Source of the DNA: Actinomycetota bacterium
Lineage (GTDB): Bacteria > Actinomycetota > CADDZG01 > WHSQ01
Direction: 5' to 3'
Length of the DNA: 34,502 nt
Assembly: GCA_009379915.1 (NCBI GenBank)
Contig: WHSV01000031.1
Location: 1-34,502, forward strand
Positions 1 to 12,972 of this stretch are shown here, one piece after another (the first letter of the stretch is position 1; each line of letters begins with the position of its first letter). The position numbers and the translations under genes were made by a program. The notes under the pieces are model-generated. The model had not been told where the DNA came from and made no database searches. It saw only the letters and a program-made list of their open reading frames with translations.

Positions 1-106
1 TCCCGGCAAGTTGCTTCTCGACGTCCACGATCTTCTTGCTCAGCCGGCGGATCTCGCTGATGCAGTCGCGGATCAGATCCGCGCGCACCGTGCGGTCACC
101 GCGCAA
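1..106 (-). pseudogene. IS110-type transposase fragment (partial)
   Basis: On the minus strand one frame is open from about 106 to the left edge and reads as a charged helical segment (RGDRTVRADLIRDC, then SEIRRLSKKIVDVEKQLAG). This resembles the middle coiled region between the N-terminal DEDD domain and the C-terminal helix-hairpin-helix part of IS110/IS116-type transposases. Upstream of about 106 the same frame turns into serine-rich nonsense, while the plus strand becomes clearly coding for a serine recombinase, so similarity stops at a sharp junction. Only about 35 residues are visible and the rest lies beyond the edge. The family assignment rests on remembered sequence character alone. 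It could be another coiled-coil protein. Confidence 0.38.
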
Positions 107-107
107 A

Positions 108-641
108 AGCGAACTCGAAGAGGAGATCGTCGAGCGACAGGCGAGCGCGTGCGAGTTGCGAGCGTCGCTCACCAAGCGCCTCGCTGCACTCGCCGAGGAG
201 CGCCAGAAGCTGCTACGCGCCTACTACGCGAACGCGATCCCACTGGAGCTACTCAAACGAGATCAGGATCGGATATCCGAGGCAGAGGAGAAAGCCAAGT
301 CCGAACTCGCCGCCACAGAGGCGGACCTCGAGAAGTGGCAGGAAGTACTTACGCTCGCCATTGGACTTGCGGGTAGCTGCCACGCCGCGTACCTCAAGGC
401 CAACCCTAAAGTGCGTCGTCGCTTCAACCAGGCTGTTCTGAAAGCCGTCAACGTTGAAGACGGAATGGTCAAGCACGCTGAGTACACGGAGGTCTTCGCG
501 GCTCTCTTCTCACGCCCGAGTTCGAATAAGTGGATCAAGGTGCCCCCGGCAGGATTCGAACCTGCGCACCTCGCTCCGGAGGCGAGTGCTCTATCCCCTG
601 AGCTACGGGGGCCCAGGCGACTGACTTTACGGCATACGTAA
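108..641 (+). pseudogene. Large serine recombinase, C-terminal fragment running into tRNA
   Basis: The frame from about 108 encodes the C-terminal part of a large serine recombinase (resolvase/integrase family that excises and integrates mobile DNA). Visible are a coiled-coil region with the typical YYANAIPLELLKRDQDRI segment, more heptad-like helix, then a Tyr-rich helix and the NPKVRRRFNQAVLKAV segment that usually closes these proteins. The catalytic N-terminal resolvase domain and the zinc-ribbon/recombinase domain are absent; the sequence is replaced at about 105 by an IS110-like fragment on the other strand. The recombinase-like part ends near 525. The frame has no stop there and continues as a translated antisense copy of tRNA-Arg (VPPAGFEPAHLAPEASAL) to a stop at 641. 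An apparent TTG at 36 lies in foreign sequence and is unlikely to be a start. It is probably a remnant of an element integrated at the tRNA 3' end. Confidence 0.75.
541..612 (-). tRNA. tRNA-Arg (anticodon CCG)
   Basis: The reverse strand folds into a full cloverleaf: acceptor GCCCCCG/CGGGGGC with discriminator A, D stem GCTC/GAGC, anticodon stem CTCGC/GCGAG with loop CTCCGGA (anticodon CCG, reading CGG), a 4-nt variable loop, and T stem GCAGG/CCTGC with loop TTCGAAT. CCA is not encoded: CCTT follows the discriminator. A TAAAGT hexamer on the same strand at 624-629 is a plausible -10 element, with no convincing -35. Its 3' end faces the serine recombinase fragment, the usual geometry for an element inserted at a tRNA 3' end. 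Confidence 0.96.
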
Positions 642-11559: not shown

Positions 11560-12972
11560 ATGTCCCCATTCGGGAGGCGTCCTAACTCTCTTTGTGGGAA
11601 GGAAATCTCGATTCGCTGCGTTGCAGTCGTAGACGGAGAGCACTACCCACCGGTGGTCGAGGGGGCCCTCGAGGCCTACAGGGCAGCCGGCCACGAGATT
11701 CTGGCCGCGGTCATGGCCGGCGGCACCGAGAAGATCGGTATCGAGGGGCTCGCCACGATCGGGCGGACCGAGGTGCGGACGTCCAGCGACCCGAGAACGG
11801 CTTTGGCCCAGGCCATAATCGAGCTGAAACCCGAGGCGATTCTCGATCTCTCCGACGAGCCCGTGCTGGACTACCGGCGGCGTCACGAGATGGTGGCGGT
11901 GGCCCTGTGGTACGGCGTGGCCTACGAGGGCGCCGATTTCCGTTTCACGCCGCCTCGGAGGCCCGAGCTCGCCGCCAAACCATCGATGGCGATCATCGGG
12001 ACCGGGAAGCGCACGGGCAAGACCGCGGTTGCGGGTTTCGCGGCCCGGACACTCAGCGCAGCCGGCCGGCGACCCATCGTGGTCGCAATGGGGAGAGGCG
12101 GCCCGGCCGAGCCCGAGATCCTGCGTGGCGATCGAATCGAGCTCACGCCGGAGGACCTGGTGGAGCTGGCCGAGGCGGGCCGGCACGCCGCGTCGGACTA
12201 CATCGAGGACGCCCTGCTCGCCCGGGTACCGACCGTGGGTTGCAGGAGGTGCGGTGGGGGCCTGGCAGGAGGGGTCGAGATAACGAACGTTCCCGAGGGC
12301 GTGGCCCTCGCGAACGAGCTCGAAGGGGATTTCATCATCCTCGAGGGCTCGGGCGCCTCGATCCCGCCCGCCCGGGCGGACGTCACGGGGCTGGTTGTTC
12401 CGGCGAGCGTGCCGCTCGAGTACCTGATTGGGTACATGGGTCCCTACAAGCTGTTGCTTGCGGACTTCGTGGTGGTTACTATGTGCGAGAGCCCCTTCGG
12501 GTCCCCCTCCCAGATTTCTTCGATCTCCGCTGTGCTCGACAAGGCATGGCGTGGCCCGGACCCCGGGGACGGGGCACGGGAGGCGCTCAAGGTGGTTCGC
12601 ACCGTGTTTCGGCCTACCCCCGTCCGCGACATCGAAGGAGCGGATGTTTTCGTAGCCACCACCGCTCCCGAAGCGGCGGGCGAGGCCTTGATCAAGCATC
12701 TGGCCAACGAGCACCGAGTCACGGTGGTCGGCATCTCTCACTCATTGTCCGACAGAAAGAGGCTGCAGACAGAGCTTGAAGACCTGGGACGAGCCGATGT
12801 TTTGCTGTGCGAGATCAAAGCGGCGGCGATCGACGTGGCAACCAAGCGAGCCCTTGATGCAGGACTGGAGGTCGTCTTCATGGACAACGTTCCAGTCGGG
12901 ATCGATGGCGACGACCCGGCCCACGTCATCGAGTGGGGGACACAACTTGCAACCGCACGGTTCGGGGCCTGA
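11560..12972 (+). CDS. Cyclic 2,3-diphosphoglycerate synthetase homologue
   Basis: Predicted to close 2,3-diphosphoglycerate to cyclic 2,3-diphosphoglycerate with ATP, as in Methanothermus. The family N-terminus is clear (RCVAVVDGEHYPPVV). A P-loop GTGKRTGKTAV lies at about residue 130 counted from 11611, and MGRGGPAEPEI, a CRRCGGG element, ILEGSGASIPPA and YMGPYKLLLADFVV follow, all in family order. Length is about 453 residues from 11611, matching the family. ATG 11560 is the only standard start that covers the conserved domain, but the 17 residues it adds look unconserved. ATT 11611 has GGGAAGGA ending 7 nt upstream and begins exactly at the conserved core, so it may be the true start. The 2-phosphoglycerate kinase gene follows 12 nt later. 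Family assignment is from recall; bacterial activity is inference. Confidence 0.82.
   Translation: MSPFGRRPNSLCGKEISIRCVAVVDGEHYPPVVEGALEAYRAAGHEILAAVMAGGTEKIGIEGLATIGRTEVRTSSDPRTALAQAIIELKPEAILDLSDEPVLDYRRRHEMVAVALWYGVAYEGADFRFTPPRRPELAAKPSMAIIGTGKRTGKTAVAGFAARTLSAAGRRPIVVAMGRGGPAEPEILRGDRIELTPEDLVELAEAGRHAASDYIEDALLARVPTVGCRRCGGGLAGGVEITNVPEGVALANELEGDFIILEGSGASIPPARADVTGLVVPASVPLEYLIGYMGPYKLLLADFVVVTMCESPFGSPSQISSISAVLDKAWRGPDPGDGAREALKVVRTVFRPTPVRDIEGADVFVATTAPEAAGEALIKHLANEHRVTVVGISHSLSDRKRLQTELEDLGRADVLLCEIKAAAIDVATKRALDAGLEVVFMDNVPVGIDGDDPAHVIEWGTQLATARFGA

Follow-up and report, generated by a model that had tools for sequence, protein, structure and literature searches.

Truncated recombinase gene and tRNA-Arg(CCG) in the window

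The window, by which we mean the whole stretch of 34,502 nucleotides analysed here, starts at a contig edge with the remainder of a serine recombinase gene, whose reading frame runs into the 3' end of an oppositely oriented tRNA gene. The features of this locus are as follows.

108..542, forward strand: C-terminal portion of the body of a large serine recombinase, ending at the core; the 5' part is absent at the contig edge
521..526: element-side TTCGAA, T-loop-like, within the recombinase frame
539..612, reverse strand: tRNA-Arg(CCG), the attachment target (ARAGORN, Rfam RF00005)
540..541: inferred crossover dinucleotide GT, inside the core GGTG (539-542)
543..641, forward strand: chromosome-encoded antisense tail of the open frame, with its stop
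555..560: T-loop TTCGAA of the tRNA, in antisense reading

The open frame spans positions 3..641 (+), crosses the antisense tRNA-Arg(CCG) in phase, and terminates at TAA 639-641, 27 nt past the 5' end of the tRNA gene. No stop codon was present in this frame of the window sequence ahead of the tRNA. An earlier reading of the locus (the sequence-only reading) had claimed that a recombinase without its own stop before the tRNA continues through the whole antisense gene; this held, and the read-through is a genuine observation.

The 5' part of the recombinase gene is missing, and recombinase homology first appears at about base 108, near which the gene was cut short either by an insertion or by the assembly, both being possible. 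Positions 1-107, at the contig edge, are not recombinase-like and carry a minus-strand open frame without a Pfam family above cut-off. A Pfam search with the window fragment alone matched no family. The closest intact relative, P0001 from genome G007, to whose C-terminus the fragment is approximately 92-94% identical, possesses Resolvase, Recombinase, and Zn-ribbon domains in that order (Pfam), and a search of 41 related genomes with the fragment gave a match in 12. Over the last 400 nt before the joint, the window and P0001 are identical at 376 positions, and the two sequences part at GGTG. As part of the main reading developed below, the window very likely holds the right end of a decayed mobile element that integrates at tRNA 3' ends.

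Read-through across the recombinase family

At least 83 relatives were confirmed, of which at least 80 loci came from a genome scan and three from a scan of viral contigs; relatives were present in 38 of the 396 genomes of the phylum searched. We examined 104 junctions, comprising 82 of the 83 scan loci (L134 was excluded as a distant recombinase) and 22 others. No tRNA was found at 13 junctions and no T-loop match at two, which left 89 scored junctions with 12 kinds of target: tRNA-His (31), Val (15), Ala (13), Arg (6), Pro (5), Leu (5), Ser (3), Ile (2), Lys (2), Met (2), and Glu (1), and tmRNA (4; L015, located via Rfam, and L261, L268, and L283).

The recombinase frame had the same phase at the joint in 88 of the 89 junctions, so the read-through is not due to chance, and it was both in phase and open up to the joint in 87. 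Among the 81 scored loci with an NQAFF motif (eight without it were left out), the distance from motif to joint took 21 different lengths, all of them in phase. Many insertions and deletions have therefore taken place with the frame preserved, from which we argue that the frame is translated across the joint. Read-through is a rule of this recombinase family, with the reservation that shared descent lowers the number of independent cases, and the suggestion that it is a recurrent design held.

The length of the antisense tail is set by the tRNA. Stops lie at +39 in 13 of 15 tRNA-Val junctions and at +3, three bases past the G of the core, in 21 of 29 tRNA-His junctions, and the span before the stop ranges over the scored junctions from one codon to several hundred. 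The claim that integration attaches a chromosome-encoded tail to the enzyme was thereby borne out, with a length that depends on the tRNA.

Position and symmetry of the joint

From sequence alone, the joint is inferred to be the GT within the antisense CCACC at the tRNA 3' end. Near-identical recombinase genes adjoin different targets (L061 a tRNA-Val, L112 a tRNA-Lys, and L064 another element), and their DNA is common only as far as GGGTGG. In 41 of 46 non-redundant loci, a TTYRAR-like motif precedes the T-loop motif of the tRNA by 34 bases; over these loci, the next best offset scored 9 and the median offset 1. The midpoint of the two TTCGAA motifs falls between the G and T of GGTG, and in the window the motifs at 521-526 and 555-560 are symmetric about GT 540-541, which is also where the window and P0001 diverge. 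The core shared between element ends measures only 3-13 bp.

All tRNAs, and tmRNA as well, share the T-loop and its spacing from the 3' end. A landmark so constant would allow a single enzyme family to act on any tRNA or tmRNA. That the recombinase contacts the T-loop and TTCGAA motifs is inferred, and since the element-side motif is also coding sequence, its conservation possibly reflects protein conservation in part. An argument from two different phases was dropped, as the phase difference of the tRNA-His loci is accounted for by GTG being displaced by 2 bp with respect to the dyad.

Empty site and search for direct repeats

In Leucobacter chironomi (G055, locus L073), a 44-kb element lies between a thrS-like flank, which we take to be thrS from a reading of its translation, and tRNA-Val. 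When the two flanks were joined and searched for in 25 genomes, among them G055, every genome matched. In G468 the flanks are contiguous, with a terminator-like stretch passing directly into GGTGGGCG of the tRNA, and this constitutes an empty site. The tRNA 3' end is thus the attachment site at the sequence level, as the sequence-only reading had supposed. The expectation that the tRNA 3' end would recur as a direct repeat at the far side of the element failed for a long repeat: flanks of up to 10 kb at the 69 loci tested contained none, except at L123, where the copies lie in neighbouring tRNA genes. A long tRNA-end repeat as attachment core was consequently rejected in favour of a short one.

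Insertions recur at the site between the thrS side and tRNA-Val, a hotspot that is empty in G468 and holds inserts of approximately 0.2 to 42 kb in relatives (genomes examined beside tRNA-Val: G468, G461, G462, G466, G464, G465, G454, and G457; loci L326-L333).

Helix-turn-helix module at the far end of the element

Two recombinase frames, L064 and L107, run on past the joint into an extra domain, and this module matched 30 of the 49 genomes or records searched. It begins in frame at the core GTG in all 11 close loci, behind either unrelated DNA or a recombinase. More divergent versions of the module share contig and strand with a recombinase located 5-64 kb away. Both ends were retrieved for 31 pairs, of which 24 shared a core and seven had none. 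Joining the ends in silico produced a single frame in 18 of the 24 pairs with a core. For the six out-of-frame pairs we can offer only after-the-fact reasons: G068 was anchored on GTG, though GGGGT fits in frame; G080 has a frame change close to the module start; G059 has an early stop; G063 is a nested remnant; and the ends taken from G070 and G087 are unlikely to be genuine left ends. More generally, the helix-turn-helix matches in G070, G072, G075, and G087 are likely not left ends.

Natural fused ORFs of 754, 642, 647, and 650 aa were found in G079, G048, G065, and G067, respectively. They occur at tandem elements, where the recombinase of one element meets the left end of the next. The claim that excision would give the recombinase a different tail therefore held at the sequence level, as the other end joins in frame both in silico and in these fusions.

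Distances between bodies and between tails co-varied across the 5-64 kb that separate them (Mantel r 0.75, n = 23 elements, p 0.0001), and did so after near-duplicates were collapsed (n = 19, r 0.70, p 0.0001). G070, G072, G075, G087, G097, G059, G084, and G080 were dropped before the test, and G085 lacked a fetched right end. An exception was observed in G066 (C149; L215, L235; G066a), where a body of one type accompanies a tail of another, possibly through exchange at the core.

Pfam assigned the tail module to helix-turn-helix families, with two copies in the longer forms. In many Actinomycetota, the missing 3' end of the gene thus encodes one or two helix-turn-helix domains. This sequence-level result corrects the sequence-only reading, which had spoken merely of another tail: the alternative tail in many Actinomycetota is a DNA-binding module. 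The AlphaFold model of the G079 fusion (705 aa, mean pLDDT 74, pTM 0.38) predicted two three-helix groups, at residues 606-642 and 654-690, behind the recombinase part. Sequence comparison of the tail with solved structures returned only general DNA-binding and other proteins (best E 1.6e-5).

Of the five tRNA-His-type left ends inspected, four lack an in-frame ATG, GTG, or TTG for 43-66 codons past the core, and the fifth (G052) has a TTG at codon 21. The lack of a nearby start codon makes it unlikely that the module is a separate gene in ends of this type. Phage and plasmid collections searched with P0001 and the helix-turn-helix tails contained no continuous gene and no close relative, the tails giving one weak plasmid match. 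No sequenced circle was seen; the fused ORFs come from tandem junctions.

Probable alternative tail in the branch of the window

The window's own branch yielded no helix-turn-helix left ends; a pattern scan for them at 16 loci (window-branch and other recombinases; 214,923 bases upstream) gave two unconvincing matches. Past the joint, P0001 reads VLLTGHYSNLPDLRFRGGNS and then stops. With up to three mismatches, the DNA GTGCTCCTAACAGGWCACTATTC was located in 12 places in 8 of 31 genomes, behind varied upstream DNA, and its reversed control gave zero matches in the same 31 genomes. One place is in the window's own genome (C100:10720-10742); the element-like stretch around it has a recombinase of a different type at its opposite end, at tRNA-Arg(CCT).

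The VLLTGHYSN residues align with the start of the helix-turn-helix-type left ends, both ending in asparagine. We first read the P0001 tail as an IS110 insertion and reinstated it because of this alignment and because it recurs elsewhere. VLLTGHYSN is likely the native alternative tail in this branch; for the window itself, this is inferred from its relative P0001.

Repeated units opening with GTGCTCCTAACAGGACACTATTC and having a common downstream sequence were observed at L340, L345, and L347 (G002 and G020), with an IS110 transposase next in G020. At L279 (G453:C64), a recombinase end without a tRNA continues as VGRSECSSNMLPDADSPLNG, with asparagine at the ninth residue, and runs on to a stop; this could be another tail type.

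Proposed mechanism and alternatives

In our main reading, which we consider very likely (probability approximately 0.85), the attachment site lies within the recombinase gene and integration at the tRNA 3' end splits that gene. At the sequence level it is supported by the shared phase, the symmetry, the paired ends, the natural fusions, and the empty site. Against it stand the absence of any observed circle or of a continuous gene in the phage and plasmid collections, the failure to find helix-turn-helix tails in the window's branch, the six of 24 pairs that join out of frame, the seven pairs without a core, the IS110 transposase that follows VLLTGHYSN in G020, the shared descent of the cases, and the absence of activity data.

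In the circular element, the whole gene would consist of the catalytic body, the core, and a C-terminal tail whose coding sequence lies at the opposite end of the element; that the circle makes this long form is inferred. The tail would be one or two helix-turn-helix domains in many Actinomycetota and probably the short VLLTGHYSN type in the window's branch. Recombination at the GT of GGTG would cut the gene, leaving the body with its own start. Once integrated, the body would end in antisense tRNA residues or, in most tRNA-His cases, at a stop formed by the joint, while the detached tail would remain at the far end, mostly without a start codon near the joint in the tRNA-His-type ends examined. 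The target would be chosen by recognition of the universal T-loop at its fixed distance from the tRNA 3' end, a contact that is inferred. The simplest use of the arrangement, again an inference, would be that the integrated enzyme is unable to perform, or is poor at, the reaction that the circle needs.

The sequence-only reading had proposed that the integrated and free forms of the enzyme differ, which held for their sequences; a difference in behaviour is inferred, without activity data. A difference in activity between the two forms, by which integration itself would limit further recombination, may or may not prove true, and we see no clear balance either way. We are similarly undecided on a bolder reading, in which the T-loop is the target motif and integration is a one-step protein switch between a long, tailed circle form and a shortened integrated form. 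If that reading is true, the enzyme's own sequence records whether and where the element is integrated.

The strongest alternative is a neutral overlap, in which attP merely lies in the recombinase gene, the circle gives a working enzyme, and the tail swap has no regulatory role. In its favour, tails vary freely with the tRNA, from one codon to several hundred, there are no activity data, and a similar 'trivial' reading, of the McMurdie type, was offered for the DsiB recombinase (PMC3146451). However, what is lost is a conserved DNA-binding module, one that varies in concert with the body, so its loss probably matters to the enzyme, and we lean slightly against neutrality.

A second alternative holds that VLLTGHYSN is the left end of an IS110-type transposon at the joint, in which case the real alternative tail of the recombinase in the window would be another, unknown one. 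It is favoured by G020, where the VLLTGHYSN start precedes an IS110 transposase, and by the sequence downstream of that start, which occurs twice in G020 and once in G002. We regard it as unlikely, as no IS110 transposase was recognised among the nearby ORFs listed in G007 and G000:C100, the P0001 joint is exactly the core of the family, and the P0001 tail shares the conserved asparagine with the left ends to which it aligns.

That the left-end helix-turn-helix module is a separate gene, such as a directionality factor merely adjoining the core, is very unlikely: the core GTG could serve as a start codon in GTG-phase types, but four of the five tRNA-His-type left ends lack a nearby start, conservation reaches right to the core, fused ORFs are known, and the upstream DNA is host sequence that cannot hold a selected ribosome site.

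Relation to known systems

There are precedents for a recombinase gene split by integration, in the tyrosine recombinase IntP of Mx8 and the serine recombinase DsiB of Dehalococcoides, the latter at tmRNA. In the Dehalococcoides ssrA islands described in 2011, the dsiB gene overlaps the attachment site and runs antisense into ssrA or the next island, and its authors suggested that DsiB perhaps reaches full function only on the circle or next to an island carrying the 3' fragment (PMC3146451). In the present family, the serine recombinase frame likewise runs antisense into tmRNA at L015, L261, L268, and L283. DsiB, which has DsiA as a companion, uses ssrA alone, with a direct repeat of 20 bp, an insertion point inferred to lie in the T-loop, and no identified tail domain (PMC3146451), whereas the present family has 12 target kinds, a short core at the 3' end, and a helix-turn-helix tail. 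A DsiB-like direct repeat of approximately 20 bp of the target 3' end was absent from the 69 loci, apart from the copies in neighbouring tRNA genes at L123.

Mx8 integrase is a tyrosine recombinase of a Myxococcus phage. Its attP lies in the integrase gene, and integration is reported to give a new 3' end and to modify activity (review PMC6070905). The present family resembles it in having attP within the recombinase gene and a product altered by integration, here at the sequence level, and differs in that P0001 has serine-recombinase domains. Both Mx8 and SSV integrases extend across attP (Islander, PMC4383910). The archaeal SSV-type integrase gene is cut near its 5' part, and these enzymes are of the tyrosine type, unlike the present family. 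In mycobacteriophage integration-dependent immunity, attP also lies in a gene and the viral and prophage C-termini differ, but that gene encodes the repressor and the integrase is of the tyrosine type (PMC8092301).

As of 2014, only tyrosine integrases were stated to be known to target tRNA genes (Islander, PMC4383910), and serine integration at tRNA genes had been called rare in 2011, with phiRSM1 and Mycobacterium AICEs cited (Ghinet 2011, PMC3218068). The phiRSM phages and these AICEs likewise have serine recombinases acting at a tRNA gene (PMC4471427, PMC3218068), but each uses one tRNA (Ser and Leu, respectively), and the phiRSM attP lies between genes, outside the integrase gene. We found no description of a split-off helix-turn-helix tail of a serine recombinase or of the T-loop symmetry, and no published account of such a breadth of tRNA targets for a serine recombinase family, in the literature searched (including PMC10083194, PMC12884075, and PMC12424338); most subscription journals were outside its scope.

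Genomic-island tools have reserved tRNA genes for tyrosine integrases, and the present family places serine recombinases at 12 kinds of tRNA or tmRNA gene. It offers a simple recognition rule, a T-loop at a set distance from GT. It also implies that annotated integrated copies fall short of the full protein, and cloning from integrated genomes would miss the tail. The natural long and short forms make the control of recombination direction testable.

A second recombinase type in the same genome

The genome of the window also holds a second serine recombinase type, with approximately 25% identity to P0001, at L009 (G000:C113, 9621-11387) and L041 (G000:C100, 126-1910, reverse strand), and this type also ends in VPPAGFEPAT. 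The C100 copy enters tRNA-Arg(CCT). The C113 copy enters a 29-31 nt copy of a tRNA 3' end and not a full tRNA, with tRNA-Arg(CCT) located 974 bp beyond. Contig C113 carries a perfect 83-nt inverted repeat at its two ends (1-83 and 12415-12497 at L009), which may be an assembly effect.
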